From: Agrocybe praecox
Taxonomy: Eukaryota; Basidiomycota; Agaricomycetes; Agaricales; Agrocybaceae
NCBI GenBank assembly: GCA_964017145.1
Contig: OZ024847.1
Coordinates: forward strand, 3,596,001 to 3,660,000
DNA: 64,000 nt
Direction: 5' to 3'
The notes under the pieces are model-generated. The model did no database searches. It saw only the letters and a list, made by a program, of their open reading frames with translations, and was not told where the DNA came from. How positions within the stretch are numbered: position 1 is the first letter of the stretch; the number at the start of each line of letters is the position of its first letter. A program made the position numbers and the translations under genes. This document shows positions 7,135 through 29,774 of the stretch, piece after piece.

Positions 7135-7190
7135 CACACCGTACCTTGGCTCATTGACCACACTGTACATTTGATATAGTACCGCACCAT
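7135..7190 (+). other. Left subterminal motif cluster (CACACYGTAC)
   Basis: Within 56 bases there are three related motifs: CACACCGTACCTT at 7135, CACACTGTACATT at about 7160, and the degenerate CCGCACCATACACT at about 7182. Similar motifs occur in inverse orientation at 29704-29764. Repeated short motifs at transposon ends are typical transposase-binding sites; that role here is inference. Confidence 0.45.
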
Positions 7191-7519
7191 ACACTACACT
7201 CAAAATATATTAGTATACTGTTGTCAATGGGATCATTTTAAAAGTTAAGATCCTGTTTGTTGGATCAGGATATGAGTGATACACCGTATGGGAACAGCAA
7301 TGAATTATTTTTGGATAACCAGGACTTAATCAATTATTATCGAACGTATTACAGCCTAGTGGGCGGCACGGAAAAAAATAACATGCAATGATCAACGTAG
7401 TATACATCATGAAATAAATTTTGGAGTGCCACAGGCATGTTGATTTACTATCGGGTTAGAGAGAATAACATCAATTCTATGATATCCCATGGAATTTAGG
7501 GACTCCTGTGTGTATTGAG

Positions 7520-9375
7520 CGGCGTCTGACAGGGTTCCGGTCGAGATTGTGTTGATAGAGACAGGATACACAGCTATTCATAAATTCTTGTCGTAAGAAA
7601 CATAGTACTCACGTGTCTCTCCTGTACTATCTAACAGGCCTGGGGATGATCTGTGTGTATCGGGTACTGTCCGACAGTGTTGTACTCGAGATACAGTCGG
7701 TAGGGACAGGACATACAGCTATTTTAATATCTTGTCGAAAGCAACACAGTATCCACGTGTCACTCCTGTACAATCCAACAGGCTTGGGGAGATATGTGCG
7801 TATCCGGTACTGTACAAGCATACAAAACAAGCGAATTTCAAAAAATCCCATTGATATTTGATATGTATACACCATCAGGATTGTCAGCCGAAATCATGTA
7901 GCTGCGCACAGAAAATAGCATCCATAGATTCAATGGTCAGCACGAATTCTGTGTGAGACAGCCGTTTCATGCTTTCAATCCAGTAGTTTCGGACAGGATC
8001 CCGCACAAACCATGTGATCAACCGAATTTAGAAACACATCTTTCGGCACTGATGGCCGCTAAATCGGAGATAGAAACTGCGCAAGAAAGCGCCGGTTTCG
8101 CGCTACAATATGCTTTTTAACAATGAGGGGTATTTACCTAAGGTCTGAAATTTTTATTGAGTATTATATAGGTAGAACTAGTACTGAATACGAAGAAGAT
8201 AGATCGTCACTACTGTATTGCGTACAAAACAAGCAAATTTCGAGCAATCCCATGATTGAGAAATGGAATTTACCACGCTAAAATTAGAACGTTAGCCAGG
8301 ATCCTGGCTATCATCGTTTGTCCAAGTTTTATCCCATAGTCTGTACTTTTGACTCTTTTATTAAAACTTGAAGCTTACAGATGGAGAGCATAGACAAGAA
8401 TATGGCTTGACTTTGACAAATTCGTCGACATTAGCATTGGATGGCAGAGAAAGCGACGGCATCAGCGGCATCAGCGGCATGATGCACAGGATGGGCCATA
8501 TGGATCAGAATGGTTTGATCCGAAGTCAAGGAATTTGATCTAATCTTGTATGATCAGCGCGTCTGAGAGGGTCCACATGAGATTCTGTCGGTTGGGACAG
8601 GATATACAGATATTCATAATATCTTGTCACAAGGAACATAGTACTCATGTGTCCCTCATGCGCGATCCAACAAGTTTGCGGAAATCTCAGTGTATTGGGT
8701 ATTGGCTGACAGGGTTCTACTAGAGATCCCGTTGGTTCGGACAGTATTATATACAGTAATTCAGTAGATCTTGCCAGAAGAAACACAGTACTCGCGTGTC
8801 ACTCTTGTGCGATCCAACAAGTTTGGGCAGATCTCTACGTATCCGGTACTGTACGACAGTGTTCCACTAGAGATCCTGTTAGTAGAGACACAATATACCG
8901 GTACTCAAGGAATTTGATCTAATTTCGTATGATCAGGACCGGTCTGGCAGGGTTCAACGCGAGATCCTGTCTGTTGGGACAGGATATACAGATATTCATA
9001 ATATCTCGTCGCAAGAAATACAGTACTCATGTGTCACTCCTGTACGATCCAACATGATTTAGGAGATTTATGGGTATCAGGTATTGTCTGACAGTGTTCC
9101 ACTCGAGATCCTGTTGGTAGGGACGGGATATGCGGCTATTCATAATATCTTGTCCAAAGGAACACAGTACTCGCGTGTCATTCCTGTACAATCCAACAGG
9201 TTTGGGGAGATCTATGCGTATCCGGTTCTGTACGACAGTGTTCTACTCGAGATCCTGTTGGTAGAGACGCAATATCCAGGTATCCACAATATCTTGTGTA
9301 AAGGAACACAATACTCACACATTATTCTTGCACGATCCAACAGGTTTGGGGAGATTTTTGTGTATCCGGCATCAC
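7520..9375 (+). repeat. Satellite of ~146-bp units, left block
   Basis: The phrase TGTCACTCCTGTACGATCCA and close variants recurs at about 7613, 7757, 8649, 8797, 9031, 9177 and 9319. Adjacent copies lie 142-148 bp apart. Each unit also carries TCCACTCGAGATCCTGTTGG and a CATAATATCTTGTC block. The units are diverged and interrupted by unique DNA at about 7860-8520. The mirrored right arm carries the same units. Reading frames through these units are repeat artefacts. Confidence 0.75.
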
Positions 9376-9490
9376 GGTAGGCGCCGATACTTGTTTCTCC
9401 GAGAAACAGGTTAATAATACAGGTGGCGTGTATCTATTAATCTGTATGTCGAAGATACAGTCTCGGGCTTTCCATATAAAGTATGGCCGA
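7855..9490 (+). repeat. Left inverted arm (1,636 bp)
   Basis: Reverse complement of 28060-29695, with exactly equal length. Stretches compared base by base (7855-7990, 8100-8330 and the inner end) match except at 7862, and two long open frames (8526-8786 and 9084-9380) translate identically from both arms. The outer edge begins TATTTGAYATGTATACACC. The inner edge lies in a MITE-like sequence related to the element at 47775. Near-identity implies a young duplication or maintenance by gene conversion. Confidence 0.9.
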
Positions 9491-9500
9491 TGCCGTATCT
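9370..9500. mobile_element. MITE-like remnant at the inner edge of the left arm
   Basis: Contains CACGGTAGGCGCCGATAC at one end and a diverged inverse GGCCGATGCCGTAT at the other. Between them is a stretch (TGTATGTCGAAGATACAG and neighbours) shared, on the opposite strand, with the 167-bp MITE at 47775-47941. The right arm carries the same remnant but its far end differs. Arm identity therefore stops inside this small element. Confidence 0.5.
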
Positions 9501-9539
9501 TAGCAATACAGGTCAATCTATTTACACCACCTGCATATA

Positions 9540-10010
9540 TGAGGCTGAATTTCTAATGAACAGGGATCCTGTCGGTTGGGACGGGATATACATGCATTAT
9601 GAATATCTATGAATATCCTGCTAAAAGGAACACGACACTCACATGTCATTCCTGCACAATCCAACAGGTCTGTGGAAATTTGTGTATATCGAGTATTGTC
9701 CGGCAGTGTTCCACTCGAGATCCTGTCGGTGGTGACAGTATATACCGGTATTAAGTATACGCGTTTATTACGTAGTGTCTGCGAGGGTTCCACGCGATAT
9801 CCTGTCGGTTGGGACAGAATATACAGATATTCATACTATCTTGTTGCAGGAAACATGATACTCACGTGTCACTCCTGTACGGTCCAACAGGTTTGAAGAG
9901 ATCTGTGCGTATCTGGTACTGTCAAACAGTGTTTAACCAGAGATCCTGTTGGTGTAGACGGTATCACATACTAATACAAGAATTTAGTATATCGTTCCAG
10001 AAGAAACACA
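9540..10010 (+). repeat. Satellite of ~146-bp units, second block
   Basis: Further diverged units of the same satellite, with the TGTCAYTCCTG landmark near 9646 and 9868 and ATCCTGTCGGTTGGGAC near 9566 and 9800. They lie just inside the left arm and are not mirrored on the right. Confidence 0.65.
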
Positions 10011-10734
10011 GTACTCACACATATGAACAGCTGCTATCCATCACTTCCAGTGAGTAATTGATCGGTTTAATTATGAAAAGGTTATAACGCGAGTAATGAG
10101 GGTAGAACATGAGTGAAATCGTGCATGAAACATACCCTTGGCAGCGCGCGCCCACAAGCAGGACATATATATCCCACGTGATGGTAAGTATCGACAATCC
10201 GGTCGACTTGAACATGATATTTTGAAGGCAGGTTCATTTTGTTGTTTGCCACTTAGGATTCCCGTGTGTATTGTGTTGGTCCGAACTGGATATATAGTCC
10301 TGCAGTATATCCTGCAGAACCCAACATAGTAATCATGTGTCAATCCTGCGATCTACAATGGTATGTGACCGATTTTGTGAGAGTACTGTTGTACAAGGCA
10401 GGTTTTTTACATGAAACCCAGTCTCTCTGGACAAGATATGAGCAAACATAATCTGTTTTACTTGATGCAAGATGTTTCTTACCTGTGGATTTGGGTCCTA
10501 GGTAGTAGTACATAAGTTTAGGTGCGGCAGGGAAGTTAAAAATAGTGCACGCCTTTGCGCGCGTGTCAATCCTGCGCAATCGACCGCGTACGATATTTAT
10601 GCGAGGTCAGCAACCAGGTTAAATTCCACAGGATATGAACACATTCTCTGTGGTGATCTACTCTAGGTTGTATCATAAGGAAAGTGTTGTTTCAGGGATG
10701 ATCGTCCACCAAATCTCTTTTTTGTACGTCCAGC
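10011..10734. other. Upstream region of the transposase gene
   Basis: No supported gene. Contains short ATATCCTGCAG-like hairpin fragments (about 10300) and presumably the promoter of the KDZ-like gene. I cannot point to a convincing TATA box. Confidence 0.35.
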
Positions 10735-13700
10735 ATGCCCAAGGAGTCACAGTTCAAGTTAATCGCTCCTCCGTCATCTCCAAGAGCGCGTATCAGCTTG
10801 CGGGCAGCTGCAGAGTCTTTCCAAGATGAGAAAATACCTACGCCACGCAGAATCCCACGAAAGGTGGACCAAACATCCAGAGTAGCACGAAAGAGAATCA
10901 CATCGTGCCCGCTAGTCCCTCCACCCAAGAGTCCAGAATCCATTGATATATTTGATTCATCATTCTTGCCCACAACTAATTCCTCACCTATCCTACCCTT
11001 ACCTGTACATAGTGGAACAGATGACGGTGAGACAGCTACAGCCTCCCTGTTCTTCAATATGCTAGACTAACTATGCGCACTAGTGGAACAACAACAGGAC
11101 ACGCCAAGCGAGACAATGTCTGCTACAATCACAACAACACCATACCAGTACTTTGTAGAGTCGGTATTTGCAGAGGAATGCTATTTTTATCAGTTATCAT
11201 ACCGCCTGTTTGTGGTTAGTGGATGGAATCAGAAAACACGAACGATTACAGTACATTGGCGTGTACATTTTTTTTGTCCCAGGTCTACTTACGATAATTC
11301 CAAGAACGAACTTTATCATTTACAGCGGATGGATTTGGGCAACGAAAGAATAGTTGTCTGTATGTGTCCGGCTGAGAGAAGACATGGGACATGCTTCCAT
11401 CAACAGTTTCTGGCTGATTTTGCAGATGAACACTTTCCTCCAAGCGACGAACTTGCAGGCACGTACTTGTGTTATTTGATGAATCAGATGGCACCTGATA
11501 ACCTTATTTGACTTGTTTCTCAGTTAGCGACGATCAAAAATTCCTCATTACACGAGCTCGAAGCCATGAGGACGATATTTACACAAACATATTTTCTGTT
11601 CCAGCACCCCGTTTACCTACCATCAAAAACCGGGCCATAGTCCAGTTCTCTGGCTATGATAATGGAAACGGCTCCTGGACGTGCACGAAGGATCCCAAAG
11701 CAACAAGCTGCAGTCATATTGTATCTGCCCGTCACTCACTACAGCAACATGTTCAATCCAGCATCCATGCAGTTGACCCGAACGCCGGTAATGATGATCC
11801 ACAGTACTTTGGTAAGTAACTCATTGTTGCACCCTACTTGAATTAAGCTCAACCTAATTTTAGAACCAATTGTACGTACTGCCACTGGCTCCAACAACCT
11901 CTCGGTATCCTACCTGCCAATCCCCCCCCCAATTTGGGCGCGAATCCCTTCAGATCCTAGCTTTGACTATGTCAAACCTCTGCTAGTCAGGCCGGAGCGA
12001 ATTACAATAACGCCCGATACTTCCACATGCTGTTGCAAAGCCGAACGAATCCCTTATAATCCCTTTCTCCCAACCGAAATGCGACCGTGTATTATATATA
12101 CCGCCACAGATGTCTGGGAAACCGAGATTGAGGTCCAGAAATGTTATTCCTGCAAAATGCGATTTGTTGGATCGGATTGTGGGGATATCGGTCTGTTTAA
12201 TTGGAATAATCGCCTTCTATTTACGCACCAGCTTCTCGACGAATATACCATGGCCTTTACCTCCTCCGAAACACCGTTTACAGCATGGATATCAGTGGTT
12301 TCCCGTCGGTACGAGGCATACCATCCTTTCAGCAATCTATTTATTAGTGAAAAGATATTCCGGGCCGCATGGTTCTCCTACTCGTCTCTTCTCCAGCTCG
12401 AGGGTGACATGAGCTGCTACCTGTGTGGACCGTCTCCTGAAGCTGTTATATTCGACGGTGTTTCGCTTTCCTTCAACAGAAAGCACCTACTTACGTCATT
12501 ACGCCCGCCCACAACGATAGATGAAGCATCTCCCGTACACAATATGGTCGAACGCGTCAAAAAGCTTCAATGGATAACCGATACGGACCTTAGAAAGGCT
12601 ATTCGAAAAATCATTACTGGACCATCTCTTATTGAAAACAGTACTGAAAATCAGATCAAGAGAGACCTCAATGACGACGATTCAAGTAGCTCATCGTCTG
12701 CGGATGAAGAACAAATACAGGCCCGGATAAACTCTCATCGCCAGAGGGCTTTTATTCAGCGACAGAATGCTCGCCTGGAGCGATTTAAGCTCATCCCCGA
12801 CGTGGTTGCTAAACTTCACAAGGTAGACCCTTCCCTGAGCTCCTTGTTTGACCGATGCTTTGGCATGGATGCTGTTCTACAGAAGATCGAAACGGACAAA
12901 GTCTATGAGAGACTTTTTGTACAAGTACGTACCGCGAACTATCCATTACTCGAATATTCAATCTAATTTACTAAGATATCGGCAGAGGAAACGGCTCTTC
13001 AAATGGCAAATCTTTCTGCCTTAGAAAAGCTCGTACACTTTCTACGTGAACCGAGCAAACCGAAAGCTTCAGAACTCGTACTCATACCCGCCCTCTATAA
13101 TGTAATTCACCACGAGCTCAATACGCATGGGGGAATTAGGCAGGATACATTTGGTGTCTGCGTCTGGATTTATAAGCGTGGGGAGACTGTTCGCCGCACA
13201 CTTATTGTACACGAGCTCTTGCCTCCAGATCCCTCAATCGCTGAGCACCCCTTAGACTGGCACAAGGTATGGAAGATATTTATTAGCGAGCTGCTCTGAC
13301 CCTGATTATGACAGACTGGGGCTTGCTATGGCATGCCGCAAGTGCGCTACCGCCCTCAGTATCCCAAATTAAAAGAAGATACTCACCGCGATCCAGGAAG
13401 TGAGACTAAAGCCGGGTGCCGCAAGTTTTATTCCAGGTACAGTCCAAAACGACTGACCGGAGGAATAATGGTCGCATGGTGTACGCATAGCGTCAGCTAT
13501 GGGTTTCATTGTATCCCAGTGGCGGAAGGAAGGAATGACGTATTTTCGGCGCTGTACACAAGGTGGAGTGTAGCCCCGAAAATCGTTGTGTATGACTTTG
13601 CATGTGCGCTTCAGCCATACTGCATGCTTAGGGAGCCAGAGTTCTTCCAAAACACTTTATTTGTTATTGACGCGTTTCACGCCCCGGATCACACCAGATG

Positions 13701-13917
13701 CTGCCCATCGTCCTTCCTTACCACTTATTCCGACACAGATCCGCGTCTTGTTCGACTCAATTCCAGTGCAGGAGAGTGTGGGAATGGTGGCCTTGCACGA
13801 ATTCCCAAATCTGTCAGCTATATGGGTCAAGACCGAGCCATAAAATATTCCAAGATCTTTTTCTCAATATGGAACCGACTTCGAATAGGGGAGATGATCA
13901 AAAACGGCAATCAATAG
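10735..13917 (+). CDS. KDZ-like transposase with SWIM-type zinc finger, 973 aa
   Basis: Six exons join in frame: 10735-11026, 11084-11470, 11524-11811, 11864-12924, 12976-13266 and 13315-13917, total 2,922 nt. The second donor (GTTATT) is weak but keeps phase. Residues 190-203 form a C-x-C...C-x-H SWIM-type zinc finger (CMCPAERRHGTCFH), and a second, looser Cys/His pair follows in exon 3. Cysteine pairs near 416/419 and 507/510 flank a 'FNWNNRLLFTHQL' segment resembling the HMGXB3-like/KDZ-associated cysteine cluster. Exon 6 carries the transposase-like core: 'TGGIMVAWCTH', 'VYDFACAL' (Asp 867), 'IDAFHAPDHTRC' (Asp 892) and 'NSSAGECGNGG' (Glu 927). The last three fit KDZ acidic positions; I did not identify the first catalytic Asp with confidence. 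It lies just inside the left arm and probably mobilises the whole element. Intactness suggests recent activity. Confidence 0.8.
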
Positions 13918-13979
13918 AGTTCTTCAACTGGGGTATTTAGCATCGAATGTAGTGTCATAATTCAGGTAATATTAGAGTA

Positions 13980-14290
13980 CTACTGTTAGAATACCACGAG
14001 ATTTATATGTATTAGGTACTATCTGACAGTGTTCCACTCGATATCCTGTCGGTAAGGACGGGATCTACAGATATTCATAATATCTTGTTCAAGGGAACAC
14101 AGTGCTCACGTGTCACTCCTGTACGACCCAACAGGTTTGAGGAGATCTGTGCGTATCCGGTACTGTGTAACAGTGTTCCACTCTAAATCCTGTTGGTAGA
14201 GACAAAATATACGGGTATCCATAATATCTTGTGTAAAGTAACACAGTACTCACACATTATTCTTGCACGATCCAACAGGTTTGAGAATGA
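13980..14290 (+). repeat. Satellite of ~146-bp units, third block (two units)
   Basis: Two units follow the transposase stop, with landmarks TGTCACTCCTGTACGACCCA at about 14110 and TTATTCTTGCACGATCCA at about 14256, 146 bp apart. They resemble the units at 9031-9340 most closely. They show that the satellite is spread inside the element and not confined to its arms. Confidence 0.7.
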
Positions 14291-14294
14291 TCTA

Positions 14295-14545
14295 TTTATA
14301 TCCACAATCTCGCGGTGTTGTGCTATTTATGGAGACTCGTACCGGATGAGGTGTTCTTTAAACTCAATTGTACCACCTAGTTTGAGAAACCCACCAAATA
14401 TAAAAGAAAACTTTATAATTTGTATTACATGTATATGTAGTGTATCCATGCTAGAAATCTTGGATCCCCGAGGGGTATTAGCTTTTTGAAATTACAACAG
14501 GCTTTGTTTCATACAACTTGAAAGTCCGCCGAATATGCCGAGCAT
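14295..14545 (+). repeat. Internal direct repeat, copy 1 (~250 bp)
   Basis: Starts TTTATATCCACAATCTCGCG and runs past CCCGAGGGGTATTAGC to about 14545. A diverged copy in the same orientation lies at 17873-18135. No coding frame. The region from here to 15056 has no other supported feature and probably contains the promoter of the next gene. Confidence 0.65.
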
Positions 14546-15056
14546 GCCGCTTGTGTTCTAATTCTATGGCGGTGATGGCCGACCATACCCGTCTCCGAGA
14601 GAATACATTACTATGGCTGCACCTCAATTCTTTTTGTCCAGCTAATGCACTCACTTAGAAAATAAATTTTAGCTTCTCTCACAGACATATACCACAAATA
14701 TATGTAGTTATATCTCAAGCACACCGTCTGTAACAGTTTGTGCGGGTATCTACATGCGTGGGAAATTGTGTAAATTGTATCGTCAAGGGCAGACCTGAGG
14801 CACCAGAGACATCAATAACTCAAAATTCGGCATCGTAAAAATACTTATGTGTTTGGAGCTATGCTATTGGCATTCCTGTGGGTATCTACAGGATTTGGAT
14901 CTGTGGAAACTCGCAACGCTTGAACGTGACTGTGACTCTGTCATTAGGTTGACTTCGACAGGATAATGATTATATCTTGTATGTCCTTACAGAGAGTATT
15001 GATACTTGACCAAGGCGACTAACCAGGACTTTGATTCCGTATTCTTTCCACCACTC

Positions 15057-16510
15057 ATGCCCAAAGCCAGTACATTGACCAGACGCGCTCCCCGTGTTCC
15101 ATCCGAGTCTCCTTCTAAATCGCGTGCAGCCCAGACCTGCCGACAGTGTCCAGATAACCCTCTTCGAAGTCAGTGCAAGCATACAAAAGCAGGACAAGAG
15201 TACCTTGCAAAACAAGCTGAAGTGCGTAATTCCAAGTGGCTCTCTCATTTTAGACAGTATTGTTCATTGTTCTATATAGCTCGCCACGGCTAGCGCCGGA
15301 CGCATGGGGTCTAGGTGCACCAAATGTCAGGGAAGGCCTTTGCGATCTGAATGCCAGCATACAAAAAAGGGACAGGCTCACTTAAAAATGATTGCCATTT
15401 CTGAGGTACGATATCTCAGTTACAATTTCTCAATGTAAGAATATATGTACTGAAATCACCAGAGCGTTGAAGCGTCGCTGGATCAAAATATTTCTGCCAG
15501 AGACCAGAACAGCGGGAGCGATGGACACAGCGGCAGCATAATCCGCCCACCAGCTAACGCTGCCCATATACCACATGGCCTGCCTGGCCTACCATCTATT
15601 TATGAGTCGCCAAACGCTGGGCCTCCCTCTCCTATGTCATCAGAGCACCATCTTCGGACAGAGAAAAGCCCTATAACGCCAATCGCATTTCCCCGTGTAA
15701 GTTTATAAACATATTCTCGCGCTTATAATAACACACTTACCTGACAACGCACAAACAGTTTAACGTCCCCATCCCTATTGACCCCAGGCTGGATGCCATG
15801 CGTCATAACAATCCACAACCACAGATACCTATCACTCCGCATCATCTTACTAGCCGCCCTCAAACCAATACTGTCAGCCAAGTGACCCAAAGTACCCCAG
15901 ACCCACATGTTGAGGGTGTTACCTCGCCTACAAAGAAAGCATACTCTCGTGCAACAAAGAAGAATCCCAAGTTTGGGCACGTAAGTGGTGCCATGCGAGG
16001 AGGAGAGCTTCATGGTACGTTAACTTATATGTGCTCACACTAAACCTTAATATATTTATTATACTACACAACACAGAGGTCATTCGACATCACGAGCGCC
16101 CCAAATTCCTCAAAGATTCTAAGCCAGCCAGCAAATACTTCTTGGAGGGTATGAATCGCTTGATCGAGAGGGCTGACGACATCGCAGCAGCCACTGGGTG
16201 CTGGCTTTTTGTTGGCGCTCAGCACGCCAACGGGACAGGTGCTACCATTCATTATACTTCTGCACGATTGCTCCGTGATGCAGCAGAGAGAATAGATGTG
16301 ATAGCTAATGATTACAACGATTTGATGAGCGATATTCTATCCGCGCGGCGGACTGATGCCGTATCACTCTCACGCAAACTCAGTGATTCGAAGAAAGAAA
16401 ACCAGAGGATGGCGAACAGATTGGAAGATATGGAGACTCGTATGGGACAGATGGGAGAAATGCTCGAATTATATTCAAGACGTTTGGGTATCCCTTCTAT
16501 AGCCGAGTAA
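15057..16510 (+). CDS. Protein with two C2CH knuckles and C-terminal coiled coil, 404 aa
   Basis: Five exons join in frame: 15057-15221, 15280-15405, 15463-15696, 15759-16014 and 16077-16510 (1,215 nt). Exon 1 carries CRQCPDNPLRSQCKH (residues 28-42) and exon 2 CTKCQGRPLRSECQH. Both fit C-x2-C-x8-C-x-H followed by T-K-x-G-Q, so one knuckle per exon suggests exon duplication. The middle is Pro/Ser/Gln-rich and probably disordered. The C-terminal exon has a conserved-looking 'WLFVGAQHANGTGATIHYTSARLL' region and a heptad-rich tail ending at 'RRLGIPSIAE'. I do not recognise the family. Knuckles plus coiled coil suggest an oligomeric nucleic-acid-binding accessory factor; that is inference. It is convergent with the next gene, and part of its last exon is duplicated downstream. 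Confidence 0.75.
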
Positions 16511-16550
16511 TTTGATAGCAACAATATATCCTAATTCCCTTCAAACTTCA

Positions 16551-16893: not shown

Positions 16894-16937
16894 ACTTTGT
16901 AGTAGATAGTCATAGTAATATACCCCTATTCTCCCTT

Positions 16938-17387
16938 TCACACATCAGCAAATCGGGCTGGGATGGACCACGAACGAGCGCTCCGGTGAATCTTTGCCAC
17001 TATATGTTTCAATCCAAAGCATTTTCCCTCCGACAATGCCGTTGGCTTGAGGAGGATCGGCGTATATGATGCCGATGAAATGGGATGATTCGGATCAAAA
17101 TCCAACCATTGGCCGTCAAGTGGGTCGTACATCGAGTATTCCGTGGTGCGCATACTTGTGATATGGCAAAGGTGCTTGTCTTTGGCACAGATAAAGAAGC
17201 CATCCTCGATCCGCCCAAGCCAATTGATTGGCAGCTCGCCGTTTCTCTGAATGTGAATGTGTAAGTAACTAGAATAAGGAATACGGAGGTCACATACACC
17301 GAGATAGACTGCTAACTCAAGGGCGGGCATTGACATGCATTTGATGTTCGCACAATCGGGATCCCCACAGTAGCGGTTTGACGACAT
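16938..17387 (-). CDS. Small protein of unknown family, 149 aa (or 132 aa if spliced)
   Basis: Open frame from ATG at 17387 to the stop at 16938. The N-terminus carries Cys residues in 'CGDPDCANIKC', a possible metal site. The rest is Trp-containing and globular-looking, with 'LPINWLGRIEDGFFICAKDKHL' and a C-terminal 'GKCFGLKHIVAKIHRSARS'. A 51-nt in-frame segment (GTATGT donor, CACATTCAG acceptor, about 17250-17300) has perfect intron borders. Removing it gives 'YLGRNGELPINWLG', which I slightly prefer, for 132 aa. It is convergent with the two-knuckle gene. No family recognised. A truncated relative of its C-terminus at 16551-16727 shows that the locus has been duplicated. Confidence 0.6.
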   Translation of the reverse strand: MSSNRYCGDPDCANIKCMSMPALELAVYLGVCDLRIPYSSYLHIHIQRNGELPINWLGRIEDGFFICAKDKHLCHITSMRTTEYSMYDPLDGQWLDFDPNHPISSASYTPILLKPTALSEGKCFGLKHIVAKIHRSARSWSIPARFADV

Positions 17388-17872
17388 AATGATATCAGTT
17401 GATGTACGTACACCACAGGTATCGACTGTCTTATATATAGGTTATTGTACCCCTATGCCCTGATCCCTTGGATACGTGCGAGTCCCCATCTTTCCACATC
17501 GCGAAGGTGCCTCAGAAATGTCGGCTAGTTATTTCAAAAGGAATTGGTTGGATCCTGTTGAGCTTAACAGGGCGGGGGGTCGCATTCGCATATTTTACGG
17601 ACACATGTGGTCACTTCACAGATACTGTCATTTATCCCATATGGTTTTTTTTTTGTACCTGTGGAGCAGTCCCGTATGCAGCTAGATGGCATAGCCGGTC
17701 TCGGAAGCGCGTCGAGCAGCCTCGCATGATGTCAGTTGAAGTCAAGGCAAGGTGGGATTCCGCTATGGATGTGTCACTGTTCACAGTCATACAGGTAATG
17801 GATCTAATCTAATCTACCTATACGGATTGGGCAATCAGCCAGATTGCACTGCCATACCGGTATCCCGGGTGG
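17388..17872. other. Intergenic stretch inside the element
   Basis: About 480 bases with no supported gene. A 114-codon frame at 17468-17812 has no recognisable domain and no clean splice context. The region likely holds the promoter of the minus-strand gene ending at 16938. Confidence 0.35.
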
Positions 17873-18135
17873 TATTTATATCCACAATCATATGACTGCG
17901 CGCGGCATTGAGTTATTTATGGAAATTTGTACCGACTGAGGCGTTTGTTGAGCTCAATTGTACTGCCTGGTTTGAGGAACACACCAAATTTAAAAGAAAT
18001 TTTTATAGTATGCACTACATATATATGCAGAGTATACCTTCCAAAAATCTCAGACCCCTGAGGGGTATTAACCTTTTGAAATAACAAGTTCGTTTTATGC
18101 AATTTCAAAGTCCGACAGGAAATGCCGAACCCGCT
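17873..18135 (+). repeat. Internal direct repeat, copy 2 (~260 bp)
   Basis: Diverged copy of 14295-14545. Both begin TTTATATCCACAATC, share CTCAATTGTAC and end around CCTGAGGGGTATTA / CCGAGGGGTATTA and a GTCCGnCnG stretch. The two copies bracket the two-knuckle gene and its convergent neighbour, so that block could have entered or duplicated as a unit. Confidence 0.6.
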
Positions 18136-18825: not shown

Positions 18826-19798
18826 TCAGACTTCTTCTTCCTGTTCTGAAATATCGCTTGGGGGAAGAGAATCCATACTTCTAGGCCAATCCATCATTGT
18901 TGCAGCACTGAGAAGATGATCCCTTTCTTTCCCGAGTATATTAGTTGAATCCTGGGAAAATCCGATTCTTTGCCAGAGAAGTGGCAGCTGTGTGCGAATG
19001 ATAGCTACCCCCTGGGATATAGCAATTACTTGCTCCTGTTGGAAGGTCCAGACGACCTTGACCGCCGTATAATCCTTGGGTAACTGACCTATAAGGATCT
19101 GAAGCGTGTGTAATATTTGGCGTCCACGAAGTTCGTGAGTCCAGAGCTTCTCGACAAAGGTTCGTTCTTTGCCAAGGTCCACTGCGCAACGAAAAAGATA
19201 CTCGAGTGTATCTTGCCACATATTAACTCCACTCCAGTAGCTGCTCCACTTCACGACTGTTTTTCGCAACTCCATAAAGTTATCGTATGCTGGGAAATTG
19301 TGCGAGATATCGTACATCTCCTCAACAGGTAGTGTGAAGTGCGGTGATCCCAATTTATCTTTGCGTGCTATAAGCTCAGCCAACTCTTTGAAGTCCGGGG
19401 TTGGGGGCTCGCTCCAAAGATTATTTGCATAAAGCTCTTGGATGTTTTGGTCCTCTAGGATGGTCTGTACTCCTTTCTCCGCGCTATGTTGAAGTTAATA
19501 ATAGATTGGTGATGGGCGCTAGTGCTTATGTCTCTTACGTTTGTTTTTCTGGGATTATTAAACCAGGCTCTATTTCTTCCTCTGCTTGTCTACTCCCGCT
19601 GGCCTTAGAAACAACCATCATATGTATTTGAAAACTTCAGTTACCTTTTTCTGCGCCGCTTATTAAGTTCTCGACACTGGGATTGTCTAGCTGCTTGATT
19701 CCTTTAGGGGGTAAGCAACACCGATTAGGAAGTAGGAGGAGGACAAACTTTAAATAATATCTGCGATCTTTCTCTGCTCTTGAAGCCTTGGAGCTCAT
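18826..19798 (-). CDS. Protein with basic N-terminus, unknown family, 274 aa
   Basis: Four exons join in frame on the minus strand: 19798-19749, 19701-19645, 19598-19539 and 19483-18826 (825 nt). The N-terminus is strongly basic and helical-looking: 'DRRYYLKNQAARQSQCRELN' then KRRRK. This resembles basic DNA-contact helices found in some fungal regulators and transposon accessory proteins, but no full bZIP heptad follows. The large last exon is Trp- and Leu-rich ('VKWSSYWSGVNMW', 'LPLLWQRIGF') with a very acidic end (SEQEEEV). I do not recognise the family. A basic head with a globular Trp-rich body suggests a DNA-binding regulator; that is inference. It heads away from the 191-aa gene on the same strand. 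Confidence 0.7.
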
Positions 19799-19962
19799 GG
19801 CGGTATAGAGGAAAGCGTTGAGCCGTATTGATATTTAAGGCATTCGTACAAATTCAAATTATAACTATTGAATCAATTTATTTGATGTGCTATCAGACAG
19901 ACGGTGTAACATTGTCTATTCACACAAGTATAATTGGCACTAAGCATAATACAAATGTAAAA

Positions 19963-20753
19963 CTACTCAGACGAGTCTAAAAAGTTAGCAAAGTCTTTTT
20001 CCCACATCGTCTCGGAGCTACAATCCCATTGTACCTGGAACACTTGGTGAGCGTTGAGAGCGCCAGTCATATAGTCGACTGCTTCCTCTTGAGTGAGGCA
20101 CTTGACGCAACGGCCGCCGGGGATGTTCTGCACGTTTGGAGAAACATATGTCCTGTCATAAAGATTCCATTCAGTACGTCAAACGAGATCAATCCAACAT
20201 AAACATGCTCACGTTCCACAGAATACGCCTGGTCTGCGGCCAACAACTACTGCGTAGAACTTCTCCCCATCAGGATTGTCGAGAGCACCTATGATAGTGT
20301 CAGCATAATATATAATAAATTCATAATAAGAGACTCACCGTTGAGTCCATGCATAGATTCTGCATCGTGCGGCTGCAGCAAATGTGATGTATGGGTGATG
20401 GTCACTCGCTTGACAACATTCATGTGCAAGAATACACGCAGTGTATCCTTCGCAGCCACAAGTGAGTGCCGCTTGACCACAAGTGCACCTGGCACGGACT
20501 CCGTGTTAGCGGAAATGCCATCACTATCAAAGGGATGAGCGGAGAAGTCTGTCAACAAAGTACCACAACTTACGGTCCAGCAAAAATACCAGGACTACGT
20601 CCAACACATACAACGTAGAACACAGGCAACTCCTCTGCTTGAAGACGGTGCACATCAGTATGACTCGTGAAAAGAAAGGAGTATGCGCATACCTCTCTGG
20701 GTCGTATTGTTTACGACGGCGCCAGGCTCGTTATGGACGGAGTCAGAGGACAT
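19963..20753 (-). CDS. Tandem RNase H1 N-terminal/viroplasmin-like domain protein, 191 aa
   Basis: Five exons join in frame on the minus strand: 20753-20693, 20637-20574, 20523-20339, 20288-20213 and 20152-19963 (576 nt). Two copies of a hybrid-binding-type domain are visible. The first starts 'FYVVCVGRSPGIFAG' and continues across an intron to 'VKRHSLVAAKDTLRVFL'. The second starts 'FYAVVVGRRPGVFCGT' and continues to 'VKCLTQEEAVDYM'. The pattern FY.V..GR.PGIF...V.....A followed by a helix is that of the RNase H1 N-terminal domain (viroplasmin-like fold), which binds RNA:DNA hybrids or dsRNA. No RNase H catalytic domain follows. The Trp expected after the G-x-F strand is absent in both copies. 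An intron sits at the same place in both domains, pointing to duplication. Confidence 0.75.
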
Positions 20754-20950
20754 CGTACTACAAACAGGCAATGAGTGGGATATGGAAGTAGTGGTAAGAG
20801 GAGAAAATATGAAGATTCACGTTCATATCTTTTCCTCAGGAACGCAAGTCGGATATTTGCACGTGATACTACGCACCGACATCCGAAATTTCCTCTTCCC
20901 GAGTCTTTTGGTAGTGATATACATCAGATAGATCAGACATTGTTTCTCCC

Positions 20951-21110
20951 TTTAAGTTTCCATGTACGATGATCGCACCATACAATCGAAGTCACTAGTC
21001 CCTGCTGACCGTCTGTAACACATGAGTGAGGTCGCCTATGAGAGTGGTCCCCTTAAGTTTCCATGTACGATGATCGCACCAAACAATTGAAGTCTCCTGC
21101 TGATCGCGGT
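20951..21110 (+). repeat. Local ~101-bp-offset tandem duplication
   Basis: The segment TTTAAGTTTCCATGTACGATGATCGCACCA... at 20951-21010 recurs at 21052-21110 with a few changes, including the following CCTGCTGA(C/T)CG block. It lies in the divergent interval between the 191-aa gene (minus) and the 902-aa gene (plus) and could carry duplicated regulatory sites. The rest of 21111-21755 shows nothing I can name. Confidence 0.7.
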
Positions 21111-21755
21111 TGAGGCCGCCGGTGACAATGCCGAGATAGTGCCGAGACATTGAAATTAGCGCCGTCCGTTGTGTTCTTTTGATTATTAATACACATAAAC
21201 ATATGTTGTAGTTGCTTGATAACACCTCAAAGATAGCCCTTTTATATATGTTTACAGATTATAAGATTGCTGGCATGGATGCAAAATTCCCGTGTTTAGC
21301 AGTCCAAATCCCACTTGGCGACAATATTCAAATTCGACACTAAGACCATCAGAATCAATATAACGCCGTCAAATTCCTGTGCGGCATACTGCAAGTTTCT
21401 CAAAAGATCAATCCTGTTGAGATCCCCACAATACAATGCCGTATGAGATTACAGGAAAAACATATGGACGATAAGGCGATAAGACCGGGAAATCCGACGA
21501 ATTTTGGTTGGAATGCTGCGTTCATGAACATCAATTCGCAAAGTACGGCCCAACAGAAGTCAACCAACGTATGACTCCACTGGGCCCTACATTCGATTCG
21601 CTAAGTAGGTAGTAGGGCGCAGTCTTTAATATTTGATATATTATGATACGTGAATGTACGGTGTGAGAAATATTAAAAACCAAACATTTGGCCTGATCCT
21701 TTCCCCCTTTCTCTCTGAAGTCGCATATCCCCTTCACAAAGCACAGAAAGAATCG

Positions 21756-24700
21756 ATGTCGTCTATGCAAGACGTATTGAACGGTGACGGTGTTCGTAAA
21801 CGTTGTAAGCATATATTTTTCTGTTCAATTCCTTGAGTAACCACACGCTTTGACAGACATGCACGTACTCTCAGTCTGGCAGAAAGAGCTGCAGACTGCT
21901 GAGGGAATTTGGAAAACCGTCAGATATAAACGCAAAAACACTGGCAAGTCTTACATGACCTTACCTGTTTGCTCACGCTAACATTTCCCACAGATTATAA
22001 AGACGCTGTGAAGACTCGCAAAGAAAGGGCGCAGCGCATTATTGAAGACTTGCAAAGGTCCGACCACACCGACCCCAGTCTTATTCCGGAACTGCCTGAG
22101 AGCCACGATACCGAGTGAGTCTCCGAATTTAGTTTTACATTAGACGTAGTGTTCTCAATGATTCACATAGAACACGACTGAGCCCAAGTTCAGAAATAGA
22201 AACCCAAGTCAGCGGGGAAGGGGACATGGATGTTGATATGACGTACGTAATAATTGTAATTAGTGATGCATATTTTCAAGCTAACTGTCCGCAGAGGTCC
22301 CACTCAGACTTCAGAAACTGGGGGTCAGGAGAGCGCACAGGGAACCAGCGGAACCATGGACGTTGACGCACGGTACGTCATTTGTTCCTATCATCTACAC
22401 GGCCTCCAGTGTTTAACAATTTATATGTGTGTATCTAGATCCCCTGTGGCATTTGGAGTCATAGCCGCGTCTTTGGGAGTTCAAGAAAGTTCAATTAACG
22501 TGGATCCGAAGATGGGAAGTCAAGAGAGCATGGATCCGAACTTATTTTCGAGGGACGGCGATGTTCTAAAGTATGTTATATTGGCATTTATGATGAATCT
22601 TGGATATCAGGCGCTAACATCGTATGAACCAGGGATAATGCGCGTGCAGGGCCGGTTCAAGATGTCACTGCGAACGTCAGTCCAGAGGTTGATCCCCGGT
22701 ATGTTCTTTAACTCCTGATATTTGCGTTCTAAATTCACCTGTCCTAGGACTCCCACCACTAAAGAGGATCTTGCTACGGCCACGGGTCTCTCTTCCGAGA
22801 ATGATTCCACGCAAAAGTGAGTTTATTACCGTTCTATTTTTTGGTCCTGGCATTAATGTGAATCTAGTAATGTCACAACAACAACTGGAACTCAAGCTAG
22901 CGCAGCTCCATTGTCCTTAGACAAGAACACACCATCTGGGTTTAGGTAAGAAAGGATTGCTTCGATGTACATGAAACGTTAATACTGATACTTAGTATGC
23001 GCTATTAGTTCACAGGTCTCCACGACGACTTTGATGCAGACAACCTTCGGAGGCTTTGTTTTCCCACATAACATGACTATGTCTCAACAGGTGCAAGAGG
23101 AACAAGTCTATCCTCCGCTCGTTAGCGCAGAAGCTCCATCGGCTTTTCAGGACCTAGATGAACAGGAGTTATTTGGGGGTCTGTCCAGTTTCCCGTCGTC
23201 CTCTTCCATGGATGCCCATGATATGGGGACGAGTCTTCCCATTCTTCCTCACTCTACGTCGTCAAATTTCTCTGCCAATGCGCTGGTGGCATCCTCCGGC
23301 CCCGTCAGATCTTCCTCATTTGGTAAAATGGATGCCTCTCACTTTGACGACATGCGACTGCTAAAAGAAGGCGAGGATATTGATGGGTAAGCTGTTCTAT
23401 TATTAGATATGTATGAATGCAGCGCTAATCACCGTTCTATAATAGATTTCAAATGGGGGAGCTCGAAAAACCTCATCAGTCGTCTGTCTATGCAAAGTAA
23501 GCTTTTTGACGGATCCATCTTGGTCTCTTGCTCATGAATACAAATTAGAGATGGATATGGAGTCGAGCAGTCGTTTGGAAGTATCCCTGCAGACGTTATG
23601 GAGATCCTTGTATATGAGTTTGACTATAAAGAATTCAAATACGAGGATGTGCCTCCGGAACAACGCGCCGAAATACTTCCCAAGGAATCGCGGTCACAAT
23701 TCAAGCTTCGCGAGGCGTATCATATTGCCGACTTGCGTATGGATTACTACCAGACGATGAGGAATGAGCTACACGCCAGACTCACAAAATTCAAGGCTAT
23801 CACGCGAGGGGAGGGACCGGCAAACCTAAAGTGTATCAGTCTCACCAACCACCTCACCAAAGTCGACCGTGTCTTAGTTGAATCAAGGGATGTCAGGGAA
23901 ACTTCTCTCACCGCATTTCAGAAGAAGAAGCTGAGCATGGAAGCCAAGCAGCGTATCGAGCAGCTAACAGCCGAAGCTCAAGTCGTCGTCCAACAATTGT
24001 CTATTCCAAACAACAAGACCGCCCAGGAAAGATTCAACGAGATTGAAGTCGAAAAGGCGGGACTGATGGCGTCTCACCTCAAGACGGATAACTCGAAGAA
24101 GGGAGTCAATCCATTTCCAGCGCAGTCTACGTTTCTTTCGAAGGATGAGTCAGGAAGGGATGCCAGGACAAGTACGCTGTTTGTGATAATGTGAATATTT
24201 GCTCAATGCTGATCAGTAACGTGCAGAAAAGGCCAAAAATTATCTCATCAAGTACAACGCCGCCAAGACTGCCATAGACCGCGAGGAGGTACTCAGCGAA
24301 ATCGACCCCAGCACCCGCCTCGCTGTACGTGAGGTACAATTCTTTTGCCCGGAGTTTGCGTCTACCAGCTTGGAGATGACGATGGCTATTCTCTCTGCTG
24401 GCAAAGATGAGAAGATGGTCTGTCGCTGCCGTCACCATTTCAACCACCGTGGAGGCCCGGATATTGTTGACAACGCCAGTGAACTACATGGCCAATCTTT
24501 CAATCGAACGGACCCACCTGGAGTGCCCCATCCAAATCATATGCATTGCGGATGCAGCAAGAATCATACGGCAGGCGAATTCTTCATCTATAAGTCGGTT
24601 CAGGTGTTCTCCGAGAATCCGCTGCTGCGTGGGATTGGCTTCTACATGAACCACAGGGAAGTCATCGATCCACGCACCCGGAGCTTCCTTGTCACCGTCT

Positions 24701-25131
24701 TCTTCCAGTTCTCGGGACTCACCCTTGACGACATCTTCGGGGGAAAATATCCATATGGTACCCCTGAATGGGACGCTCGCATTGCTGCCACTATGGCCAT
24801 TCGAAAAATTACCTATCTGGTCACTGTTAGCGGAATCGAGGACGTACTCGGATGTATCGCAAATAACGATAGACTTCCAATTTCCGACCGCTCAGCCGCT
24901 ATGGCTCAATTTCTCAAATATACCGGCATTCCGTATGAGCAGATGTTCGGTGACCATTTGCCTCGCCATGGAACAGTTGCTTGGAACGGACGACTTGCTG
25001 CTCTTACTTTAAAGGAAAGGATTAAATACCTCTCTAACGCTCACAATATTGGTGCTTATATTGGTTTCAATACGCCAGAGGATAGGGAGAAGTTCTTTTG
25101 TCTTGTTGGTGGTGAGTTTCCTGGGTTGTAA
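21756..25131 (+). CDS. Large protein of unknown family with duplicated C-terminal module, 902 aa
   Basis: Thirteen exons join in frame: 21756-21804, 21857-21943, 21994-22114, 22171-22242, 22295-22372, 22439-22570, 22633-22698, 22748-22816, 22868-22945, 23009-23386, 23446-23496, 23549-24171 and 24227-25131 (2,709 nt). Intron 2 uses a GC donor (GCAAGT). The N-terminal third is low-complexity and Ser/Thr/Glu-rich, with two exons both ending in a 'G(E/T)MDVD' phrase, so exon duplication is likely. The middle (exon 12) is Lys/Glu-rich and helical. The C-terminus has Cys pairs at 667/669 and 709/711 with many His residues, a possible metal site. Two ~60-aa repeats follow (about 749-812 and 819-882), each with an FG....GT..W..R.AA core. 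No known domain recognised. It is the largest cargo gene and preserved over 13 exons, so it is probably functional. Confidence 0.75.
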
Positions 25132-25465
25132 ATAGTTAGTATGATCCTTTGTATTCGATTTTCAATGCATCGACTGTTGGGCATCACTGGCGTAAGAGTA
25201 ATGGTATCGGTCAAAACAGTTTAAATGGTACATATATTGCTTATTAGGCCACGATCTGAGCTGTGAATAATGTTGCAGTCGACAGGATTTTCACGCCCAA
25301 GTCCATATTCCCACGGCACAGCCACGCGACTTGTACATGACGCACACCTGAAATTCTGTTGAACACAACACGATTTGGTAATGAAAAGCTGCACTATCTA
25401 ACACATTGAGGTGTACGCAAAATATATAAAGGGCTTGAAACTGAGAATTATCGCCTGGCCAAATA

Positions 25466-26214
25466 ATGCCACCCACATATTCTGGTGATGATGCCAATGA
25501 CGATGCTTGCTCGAGATCATCAACTCCTGATTCTTGGGCCGACGCTGTCTGGGAACGTGACGACGACGACGCCCTGGGTATTTATGAGTCAGCGTTCCGT
25601 GTCTTCATATACCTCGAATTCGACGTAAGCTTGTACTAATCATCACACTGATTCAACTTGTGCTTATTTTTTTATTTTTTTAGACGGGCCCACATTTACC
25701 TTTATACTTCCCCATTATAATTACCGACAAGACGTTCACTTACAAGGACCACCCCGACCTTTGCCGGGCATTCCATCCATCAACTGCCTGTCTCGAGTGC
25801 TGGAATCCATCGGGTTTTTTTTATCCCTTTGATTGCTACCGTCCCTTCGACGTCTCCTGCCGACCATACATGATTATTCTCAGGCCTCAAGATCAGCCAA
25901 ACAATTATCTTTCAGCTTGTATAGGCTTTCGGGAGCTTACATACGAGCTGTACTGGTCCCCTGGACGCTTTAGGTGGACGACAATTTGCAAGGGGATCGC
26001 ACCACCCGACACCGAGCTTTCGTTACTCAATACGGGCTGTCTTGAGTACCTCAAAGAGACGGACGATTGGAAAAGTGGGTCGTGGGACTTCCGAGATCGT
26101 AGTATGGCAAGAGAATTTGGGGTTTGGGAAGGAGACGAGGACGAGTATGATAGCGACGATTACAAACATGTCGTGATCAGAGGTTCAATGGTTTACTTTA
26201 ATGATTTTGACTAG
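25466..26214 (+). CDS. Cargo paralogue A, unknown family, 229 aa
   Basis: Two exons join in frame: 25466-25624 and 25684-26214 (690 nt). The N-terminus is acidic and Ser-rich; the rest looks globular. It shares the block 'IGFRELTYELYWS' and the preceding 'NYLSACIGF' with the downstream gene ('DYLKLCIGLRELTYELYWS'). It also shares the later 'G.CLE.L.E' segment. It ends with an acidic stretch (EGDEDEYDSDDY). I do not recognise the family. It follows the 902-aa gene on the same strand with about 330 bp between them. Confidence 0.7.
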
Positions 26215-26488
26215 GTTGTAGTTCATCAGTTAAAATGAGACGATACTTCTGATCTAAATGCTGGGATATTGAACAGGATTTCGTTTTTTCATTATCGTGC
26301 GTGTGAACCGACCCCGGATAACTACCTAAAATTATGTCGTATACAACAGTATCCTTCCCTAACATTCACACCGTTTATATGATGCCTTGTTTAACTGTAG
26401 ATCAAGGATACTGCTGATTCTCACTGTTTACATCGACCTGATTTGCTGTACCCTACGTTAGAGAACTCGCCCTCTTTTTGCCACCACT

Positions 26489-27321
26489 ATGGCAGCCTCT
26501 AGCAGCGCCTTACCCACTACCCAAGTCTCCCATCCTACTTTGGAAATACACCCAAATCATCGCAGTGAAGATACCTCTGAAATCATACCCTCGCCAACAA
26601 CCACACACTGCGAAAGCGATGAAGAAATAGAGCCTGGCTCTGACCATGACCGTCTCATGGCATCTGCCCTAGAGTGCCCAGACATCACACCCGAAAATGA
26701 CCAACTAGTCCCTGTCTCCGTTAAAACATTGGAGTGGTGGGGACGTAATAAAAGGCTGCGTGAATGCACAAATAGACGTGGACGAGACATCTACGTATAC
26801 GTATACGGTGACCACACGGTAAGAGTTTTTTTATCTGTTAGCCATTGCGGTTTAACGTTGTATCTTAGAGAGGAAAGCACCTACCGGAACCTGTTGACTT
26901 ACGCATATACGACAATACACTTCAGTACGACAAATGTACAGAAGTCTGGCCAGATTTAAACTATGAGAAGGTTCCCATCTGCCTTTGGACCCCTCGAGGA
27001 CGATTTACATCTATTTCTGCCAAGTTCCCATACAAGATCGAGCGCCATATTAATACGATTATTATGTGCCCTGGAAACCAGCCCAAAGATTACCTCAAGC
27101 TGTGCATCGGATTGCGCGAATTGACCTACGAGCTGTACTGGTCAAGCAAAGGCCGTGACTGGACCCCAATTTCGAAGGACGTAGGCGCACCGCCTGATCG
27201 GGATCTCGAACTAACCAGGATGGGGAATTGTTTGGAGAAGCTTCGGGAGCACGGAGAATATGACAAATACTTGTGGAAGTTTCCAGATATTTCTCGCGCA
27301 AAACGTAGCTATAGATATTAA
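26489..27321 (+). CDS. Cargo paralogue B, unknown family, 260 aa
   Basis: Two exons join in frame: 26489-26818 and 26869-27321 (783 nt). The C-terminal 90 residues are clearly paralogous to the 229-aa upstream gene (RELTYELYWS core), so the pair arose by tandem duplication. The N-terminal 110 residues are different: Ser/Thr/Glu-rich, then 'LEWWGRNKRLRECTNRRGRD', which has no counterpart in copy A. The intron lies in a comparable place. Function unknown. It is the last gene before the right inverted arm. Confidence 0.7.
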
Positions 27322-27329
27322 ATTTCTTA

Positions 27330-28059
27330 TTCTTCAATACGAGAGACACTTGTTGTTTGAATACTCCCTGGAATGACACCACCACTTAATAATATCCTGT
27401 CGAATTAAACATAAAACGTTGTCAGTACCCTATATTTCTCAGTGGATATGTACAGGATTACTATATACAGGGCCTCTGGATGTCCGTATCTACAGATTTG
27501 CGGTGTACATATCTACATGATTTCGGTGTCGGGCTAATTATAGATCTCATGTATGATGTAAGCAGGGATTAATCCCGCTTGGCCCCAACCGACCAATAAA
27601 CACTAATATCCTGTAGAACTCTACAGGATATTTGAATGACATTCTGCGGAACATTGCTGAGATTAAATCTCTCCAGGAATTTAAATGATCGCTGGTATCC
27701 TGTTAGAATCCACAGGATGATCATTACTGAGTTTATTACTTGAAACTTCCGTCGAGGACCATCACTCATCAATATCCCGCTACAACGAGCTGGATATACA
27801 GAGCCAAACTAGGTGCATTTCTACTAGACCCATAGTTCCCACTGAGTTCCTGTTTCAATTATCAGGATGGAGACTGCCAAATTAAGTACCTCAAAACGGG
27901 ATTGCCACTTGGGATTGATATCCAGTGAAATTGAACAGGTTGTACCCAATGCAACGGAGTGTGTATGTACAGGAATCTTGCATACTTCCACTGATTTATG
28001 TAAATCAGTACAGAATTTGTAGTGTGCTGATTCTGTTATTATGTATTGCGCTACATAGA
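27330..28059. other. Hairpin-rich stretch before the right arm
   Basis: No gene. Several short inverted repeats of the form TATCCTGT...ACAGGATA occur, best at 27605-27633 (AATATCCTGTAGAAC followed by its complement) and a weaker one near 27694-27722. The ATCCTGT word is also frequent in the satellite units. The hairpins may be short palindromes left by small insertions or binding sites. Confidence 0.5.
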
Positions 28060-29695
28060 TCGGCCATACTTTATATGGAAAGCCCGAGACTGTATCTTCG
28101 ACATACAGATTAATAGATACACGCCACCTGTATTATTAACCTGTTTCTCGGAGAAACAAGTATCGGCGCCTACCGTGATGCCGGATACACAAAAATCTCC
28201 CCAAACCTGTTGGATCGTGCAAGAATAATGTGTGAGTATTGTGTTCCTTTACACAAGATATTGTGGATACCTGGATATTGCGTCTCTACCAACAGGATCT
28301 CGAGTAGAACACTGTCGTACAGAACCGGATACGCATAGATCTCCCCAAACCTGTTGGATTGTACAGGAATGACACGCGAGTACTGTGTTCCTTTGGACAA
28401 GATATTATGAATAGCCGCATATCCCGTCCCTACCAACAGGATCTCGAGTGGAACACTGTCAGACAATACCTGATACCCATAAATCTCCTAAATCATGTTG
28501 GATCGTACAGGAGTGACACATGAGTACTGTATTTCTTGCGACGAGATATTATGAATATCTGTATATCCTGTCCCAACAGACAGGATCTCGCGTTGAACCC
28601 TGCCAGACCGGTCCTGATCATACGAAATTAGATCAAATTCCTTGAGTACCGGTATATTGTGTCTCTACTAACAGGATCTCTAGTGGAACACTGTCGTACA
28701 GTACCGGATACGTAGAGATCTGCCCAAACTTGTTGGATCGCACAAGAGTGACACGCGAGTACTGTGTTTCTTCTGGCAAGATCTACTGAATTACTGTATA
28801 TAATACTGTCCGAACCAACGGGATCTCTAGTAGAACCCTGTCAGCCAATACCCAATACACTGAGATTTCCGCAAACTTGTTGGATCGCGCATGAGGGACA
28901 CATGAGTACTATGTTCCTTGTGACAAGATATTATGAATATCTGTATATCCTGTCCCAACCGACAGAATCTCATGTGGACCCTCTCAGACGCGCTGATCAT
29001 ACAAGATTAGATCAAATTCCTTGACTTCGGATCAAACCATTCTGATCCATATGGCCCATCCTGTGCATCATGCCGCTGATGCCGCTGATGCCGTCGCTTT
29101 CTCTGCCATCCAATGCTAATGTCGACGAATTTGTCAAAGTCAAGCCATATTCTTGTCTATGCTCTCCATCTGTAAGCTTCAAGTTTTAATAAAAGAGTCA
29201 AAAGTACAGACTATGGGATAAAACTTGGACAAACGATGATAGCCAGGATCCTGGCTAACGTTCTAATTTTAGCGTGGTAAATTCCATTTCTCAATCATGG
29301 GATTGCTCGAAATTTGCTTGTTTTGTACGCAATACAGTAGTGACGATCTATCTTCTTCGTATTCAGTACTAGTTCTACCTATATAATACTCAATAAAAAT
29401 TTCAGACCTTAGGTAAATACCCCTCATTGTTAAAAAGCATATTGTAGCGCGAAACCGGCGCTTTCTTGCGCAGTTTCTATCTCCGATTTAGCGGCCATCA
29501 GTGCCGAAAGATGTGTTTCTAAATTCGGTTGATCACATGGTTTGTGCGGGATCCTGTCCGAAACTACTGGATTGAAAGCATGAAACGGCTGTCTCACACA
29601 GAATTCGTGCTGACCATTGAATCTATGGATGCTATTTTCTGTGCGCAGCTACATGATTTCGGCTGACAATCCTGATGGTGTATACATGTCAAATA
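28060..29695 (-). repeat. Right inverted arm (1,636 bp)
   Basis: Reverse complement of 7855-9490, same length, with one difference noticed near the outer edge (29688 against 7862). It contains the mirrored satellite units and the unique GATCCTGGCTA-containing central part. It ends GGTGTATACATGTCAAATA at the outside. Beyond it the plus strand enters the right motif cluster directly, without the extra 650 bp seen on the left. Confidence 0.9.
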
Positions 29696-29703
29696 CATAG
29701 GCT

Positions 29704-29764
29704 AAGGTACGATGTGGTGCTCCTATTAATGTACGGTGTGCAACATACTGTACTGTACCGTGTG
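29704..29764 (-). other. Right subterminal motif cluster
   Basis: On the minus strand the cluster reads CACACGGTACAGT, then CACACCGTACATT, then CCACATCGTACCTTAGC towards the arm. These match the left cluster (CACACCGTACCTTGGC, CACACTGTACATT) in inverse orientation. The end at 29764 is set by the last GTACCGTGTG. Confidence 0.45.
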
Positions 29765-29774
29765 TTATTCTCCC

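Follow-up and report, generated by a model that had tools for sequence, protein, structure and literature searches.

Is the block of eight genes that lies between near-identical inverted arms on contig C8 (OZ024847.1) of the mushroom Agrocybe praecox a mobile element, where does it end, and what are the genes beside its transposase gene doing there? The window, meaning the whole 64,000-bp stretch that was analysed (C8 positions 3,596,001-3,660,000), had been described in an earlier note as holding a giant KDZ-type DNA transposon with seven cargo genes. We present evidence that the region is very probably a complete KDZ-type DNA transposon, from the CxC4 branch, which jumped in the recent past by cut-and-paste, inserting at an 8-bp stagger.

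Genome, searches and gene models

The genome searched comprises 59,170,728 bases in 347 contigs. Family A denotes the window copy together with its copies on contigs C9, C6 and C7, and family B a 15-kb sister element. Gene models are our own predictions, the first exons of G5 being the least certain, and the ratios of nonsynonymous to synonymous change (Ka/Ks) rest on these models and are given without confidence limits. For some genes the Pfam scan used an exon piece or the family-B homologue only. Proteins of the window were compared one by one with the family-B element, each with a shuffled control. Homologue searches of the protein collection covered G1, G2 and G5. They yielded at least 161 relatives of G1; domain and identity figures come from the 120 listed, and the G1 alignment from G1 and the 117 of these 120 that exceed 600 amino acids (aa).

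Ends, target duplications and empty sites

The arm region strongly matches three other places in the genome, on C9, C6 and C7, where copies are found that are 99.1-99.6% (C9 and C6) or about 95% (C7) identical to that of the window. When aligned, the four copies share one start and one end within unrelated flanks. In the window the resulting features are as follows (strand is given where there is one).

7095-7102: target duplication, left copy, AGTGGTCA
7103-29796: whole element, 22,694 bp, GGGCTACAG...TTTATTCG, from the borders of four copies
7103-7189: left tip, an imperfect terminal inverted repeat in which CACNGTRC begins 34 and 58 bp from the outer end
29715-29796: right tip, an imperfect terminal inverted repeat in which CACNGTRC begins 34 and 58 bp from the outer end
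29797-29804: target duplication, right copy, AGTGGTCA

The four-copy borders and the exact duplications correct the extent first proposed, 7135-29764. Both also fall outside the arms, which rules out the arms as transposon ends.

Searching the genome with the KDZ part of the transposase and with the CxC4 model gave the same 15 loci. Five of them are 76-78% identical in the KDZ part, and four of these five belong to family B: whole copies at C9 2398470-2413437, C8 2914369-2929487 and C6 633645-649581, and a copy on C5 truncated at both ends. The tips of the two families are related. The earlier note had proposed to look for further copies and for a target duplication of fixed length; besides the three further copies of family A, all seven copies with both ends (four A, three B) are flanked by exact 8-bp duplications, each different in sequence (AGTGGTCA, CAAACTTG, CATTCCCG and TCTTGAAG in family A; CACAAGTG, GAATTTTT and CCTCCTTT in family B).

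A search of the genome with joined flanks found unoccupied paralogous sites crossing the junction for three of the seven insertions. The empty site for the B copy on C6 is identical in 135 of 150 columns, with no gaps, and that for the B copy on C8 in 145 of 184 columns, of which 19 are gap columns. For the A copy on C6 there are four candidates, three of which were retrieved (124/158, 122/158 and 113/147); at one A empty site the 8-mer differs at its last base. The A copy on C6 (C6:475169-546387) has itself been stretched to a span of 71,219 bp, with about six insertions nested in it. The borders of these repeat roughly 2-11 bp of element sequence, and the window copy therefore displays their empty sites.

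The outer 100 bp of the family-A tips gave an inverted-repeat alignment score of 45, where 500 shuffles reached 35 at most, and the family-B tips scored 49, where as many shuffles reached no more than 42. CACNGTRC recurs in family B, 34 and 58 bp in at the left end and 34 bp in at the right. The genome contains the 12-mer TGGCTTTATTCG 11 times, compared with 5 for its backward control; four of these places are right ends of A copies, three are right ends of B copies, one is a fragment of a B end and three are unrelated. Paired CACNGTRC was rejected as a genome-wide end finder: it gave 13 matches, nine of them A or B ends, with eight for the backward control. The four further matches may be chance, and known tips were not seen at the three inspected (L061, L062 and L063). 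L061 resembles L062 (TTAACYACACCGTACATA), and the three are perhaps ends of other element families, although their number is within chance expectation.

Transposase

The transposase gene had been placed just inside one arm, and it does lie just inward of the left arm:

10735-13917, strand +: G1, transposase, 951-aa model, CxC4, weak KDZ, near-invariant D498/D845/E905

G1 matches CxC4 (PF18717) with an E-value of 4e-45, and PF18717 is found on all 120 listed relatives; PF18758, the KDZ domain, is annotated on six of these 120 in precomputed assignments. The closest relatives among the matches listed are Agaricales proteins (Galerina marginata and Agrocybe pediades, 57%). D498, D845 and E905 are each present in 116-117 of 117-118 aligned proteins, a pattern from which we infer that they would form the catalytic triad. 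G1 may be pictured as binding the paired CACNGTRC tip motifs, cutting there by DDE-type chemistry, excising the element and inserting it elsewhere.

Two results count against a KDZ transposon here. No empty site was found in the same genome for the window insertion and three others, and the match of G1 to PF18758 (E-value 4.9e-4, 20.3 bits) lies below the Pfam cut-off of 26.6. We nevertheless retain the giant KDZ-type DNA transposon of the earlier note, given dispersed copies, one pair of ends, 8-bp duplications, empty sites for three of seven insertions, and a CxC4 match accompanied by a weak KDZ match.

The seven further genes

15057-16510, strand +: G2, 401 aa, two cysteine/histidine repeats and a conserved C-terminal region
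16938-17387, strand -: G3, 149 aa, single exon
18826-19798, strand -: G4b, 274 aa, basic N-terminus
19963-20753, strand -: G4a, 190 aa, PF01693 ribonuclease H1 N-terminal domain (3.6e-10)
21654-25131, strand +: G5, 916-aa model, first exons uncertain
25466-26214, strand +: G6, 229 aa, paralogue of G7
26489-27321, strand +: G7, 260 aa, paralogue of G6

The uninterrupted frames first reported for all eight genes hold for the window copy, whose models are free of internal stops. Other copies carry frame-breaking differences: one indel position in G1 of the C9 copy; an indel position in G1 and stops in G4a and G7 of the C6 copy; and, in the C7 copy, three indel positions together with two stops in G5, a single indel position in G2 and six such positions in G7. 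Besides CxC4 in G1 and the domain of G4a, no Pfam family exceeded its cut-off in the genes scanned. The predicted fold of G4b is helical (mean predicted local distance difference test score, pLDDT, 60.6) with no Foldseek match in the PDB at E<=0.001; that of the C-terminal region of G5 was unusable (mean pLDDT 45), and both alignments, used as profiles against PDB sequences, gave no credible match.

Seven of the eight genes have homologues in family B, all above their shuffled controls, with E-values of 1e-134 (G1), 3e-50 (G2), 4e-8 (G3), 2e-35 (G4b), 2e-22 (G5), 8e-18 (G6) and 3e-21 (G7), and identities of 26-76% depending on the stretch. G6 and G7 match one and the same B gene, and gene order and orientation differ between the families. 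Across the genome, 14 of the 15 CxC4 loci have G2 no more than 7 kb away, every one of the 10 matches to G4b and the 12 to G5 has a CxC4 transposase within 32 kb, and matches to G6/G7 (13 rows) are confined to A and B elements. Five of the 19 places with G2 are not within 10 kb of a CxC4 locus; these G2-like frames stand at C10:2605784 and at C2:56540, 130497, 180406 and 190097.

Between the window and C7 copies, Ka/Ks is 0.23 for G1, 0.29 for G2, 0.26 for G3, 0.31 for G4b, 0.25 for G4a, 0.24 for G5 and 0.13 for G6, while G7 is not judgeable (Ks 1.27, with 182 of 261 codons aligned). The six measurable non-transposase genes thus appear, from these codon comparisons, to evolve under purifying selection. 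Since six of the seven also have a sister-family homologue (one shared by G6 and G7), 'cargo' is probably the wrong word for them, and we read the set as mostly a co-inherited accessory module. Its members, G2 first and then G3, G4b, G5 and G6/G7, may aid movement, expression or escape from silencing and would for that reason stay with the element. For G2, with its almost constant place next to the transposase and its cysteine/histidine repeats, a role in end binding or complex assembly could be guessed, and for the remaining partners one in regulation or counter-silencing.

The fuller proposal is a multi-protein system: a KDZ transposase and five or more partner proteins, dedicated to it and of no recognised fold, that have stayed with one another across deep divergence, have been reshuffled by inversions and serve movement or survival. 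It has to be set against several results. In comparisons of the window with C9 or C6, several Ka/Ks values are near or above 1, with small counts. Family B yielded no homologue of G4a, its best score of 25.0 bits falling short of the 32.7 reached by shuffled sequence, and five of the 15 CxC4 loci have no match to G4b or G5 within 33 kb. The protein collection holds no homologue of G2 (E<=0.001) or of G5 (E<=1), compared with at least 161 for the transposase, which leaves conservation of the module across species without support. For that last reason we advance the multi-protein system tentatively, with rather less than even confidence. If true, the element would not count as a carrier of cargo, and KDZ elements would gain a new level of complexity.

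The strongest competitor is that the seven genes are captured passengers of no use to the element, as in cargo-carrying giant transposons. The gaps just listed for G4a, for G4b and G5, and for G2 and G5 in the protein collection would all fit it, as would the lack of a recognisable known function in most of the genes. We consider it unlikely in view of the family-B homologues of seven of the eight genes (the transposase included), the proximity of G2, G4b and G5 to CxC4 loci, and Ka/Ks well below 1 against C7.

A non-coding stretch of about 260 bp is present at 14309-14561 and 17871-18134 of the window, in family B (C9:2404531-2404811) and in further places of the genome. It is 77% alike between A and B elements and is perhaps a small non-autonomous element.

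Arms and inversion of the interior

7855-9491, strand +: left arm, 1,637 bp, tandem units
28059-29695, strand -: right arm, 1,637 bp, one mismatch to the left arm
14015-14293: arm-related repeat units directly behind G1

Of what had been said about the arms, the near-identical inverted pair and the 18.6 kb that it encloses (18,567 bp) stand, with a length of 1,637 rather than 1,636 bp and one mismatch; the arms are not the termini of the element, being subterminal, 752 bp inside the left tip and 101 bp inside the right. Most of their length is built from tandem units, roughly 144 and 379 bp long. In both families, arrays of repeats lie close to the left tip and directly behind the transposase. 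In family B (L043 4346-5305) the array near the left tip has 62-bp units, and a related array lies just behind the transposase gene.

The two arms of a copy differ at one of 1,637 positions in the window, two of 1,637 in C9 and five of 1,368 in C6 (part of the left arm), as against 7-18 sites between copies; 15 of the 22 variable sites agree inside every copy yet differ between copies. This is the pattern expected from gene conversion, by which the two arms of one copy may exchange sequence. The C9 copy has the same tips with its interior reversed, at 99.6% identity, and recombination between arms would have flipped this 18.6-kb interior. For the study of gene conversion and inversion within a mobile element, the arms may provide a natural example.

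The right arm of C7 matches over about 430 bp at 79%. Family B has no kilobase arms, only inverted repeat-array stretches of about 320-420 bp that are 75-79% identical. Near-identical arms are therefore a trait of some A copies; they probably arose late, and are dispensable for transposition as such. A looser alignment pairs the C7 arms with 863 identical of 1,390 columns, so an old, diverged long arm may persist in that copy. The whole right end of the C7 copy (G7 and the right arm, C7:59790-62300) is far more diverged than the remainder and seems to have been exchanged from another element lineage.

Could the arms be a working inversion switch that reorients the genes of the element? One of the four A copies is inverted, and the family-B transposase lies near the right tip, as in the flipped A copy. 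Yet this is a single flip, family B has a different gene order and lacks the kilobase arms, Pfam scans found no recombinase domain in the eight genes, and long identical arms are able to recombine without a recombinase. We regard a switch as highly improbable.

Position and surroundings

The window copy lies about 0.1 Mb short of its contig's end and the C7 copy near the start of its own, as would suit a subtelomeric segmental duplication, or a host gene cluster with flanking inverted repeats, and no transposon; the exact, differing 8-bp duplications and unrelated flanks of all seven copies, the empty sites, and the position of the B copies on C9 and C8 well inside their contigs make this almost certainly wrong.

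Downstream of the element, frames at 32348-33226 and 38862-40208 of the window match Retrotrans_gag, zinc knuckle and Ty3 capsid models. A second inverted structure occupies 51182-63181, with arm pairs 51477-51738/62376-62637 and 52248-52545/61574-61871, and the frames at both its ends have weak zf-MYND matches below the cut-off.

Comparison with known systems

Zisupton and Dileera are described with 8-bp target duplications and Kyakuja with 7 bp in the available part of Kojima (2025, PMC12730594). The element resembles the first two in its KDZ-related transposase and its 8-bp duplications (seven of seven copies), and differs, as far as that part of PMC12730594 goes, in its 22.7 kb, seven further genes, subterminal kilobase arms, CxC4, and no TET/JBP match. 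This last result holds for the scanned pieces and models and for Pfam matches with E-values up to 1, a search that a very diverged TET/JBP dioxygenase of the PE type could escape. Kyakuja, with its 7-bp duplication, CA..TG ends and no terminal inverted repeats, contrasts with the 8 bp, GGGCTA..TTCG and imperfect terminal repeats found here.

KDZ1-KDZ3 of Cryptococcus neoformans, as given in the accessible sections of PMC12810828, are 9-11 kb long, carry CxC1 and have terminal inverted repeats of 139-241 bp, with duplications of 8 bp (KDZ1) or 4-8 bp (KDZ2 and KDZ3). They share with our element a KDZ-related transposase beside a cysteine cluster and, for KDZ1, 8-bp duplications, and differ from its 22.7 kb and CxC4. 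The CxC5/CxC6 insertion of Pleurotus ostreatus is likewise a mushroom mobile fragment with a cysteine-cluster reading frame; in the excerpt consulted it is a 6.8-kb insert with no KDZ element nearby, linked by its authors to Copia (PMC7641404). The portion of PMC6431247 at hand does not mention KDZ or Zisupton, and that of PMC9674265 describes a Marasmius library whose largest elements reach about 42 kb.

Mushroom genomes commonly carry CxC4 transposases, as the relatives of G1, at least 161 in number, show. Among the matches listed, Agaricales CxC4 proteins (from Galerina, Agrocybe, Mycena, Coprinopsis and others) are 38-63% identical to G1 over the aligned part and are annotated as hypothetical or HMG/SWIM-domain proteins. 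In the literature searched, which covered titles and the starts of abstracts, we found neither a published CxC4 element with these ends or genes nor the boundaries or gene content of such elements, and CxC4 and KDZ did not occur together in any paper of the library searched. The present analysis supplies exact ends and the target size, together with empty sites, a motif that is a candidate for binding and, beside 14 of the 15 CxC4 loci of this genome, the partner gene G2; the need for partner genes in movement becomes directly testable.

With giant cargo transposons such as Starships the element shares a size of tens of kilobases and the carriage of several genes. Starships use a tyrosine recombinase; the element described here differs from them in its DDE-like transposase, its 8-bp duplications and the genes that it shares with a distant sister element.

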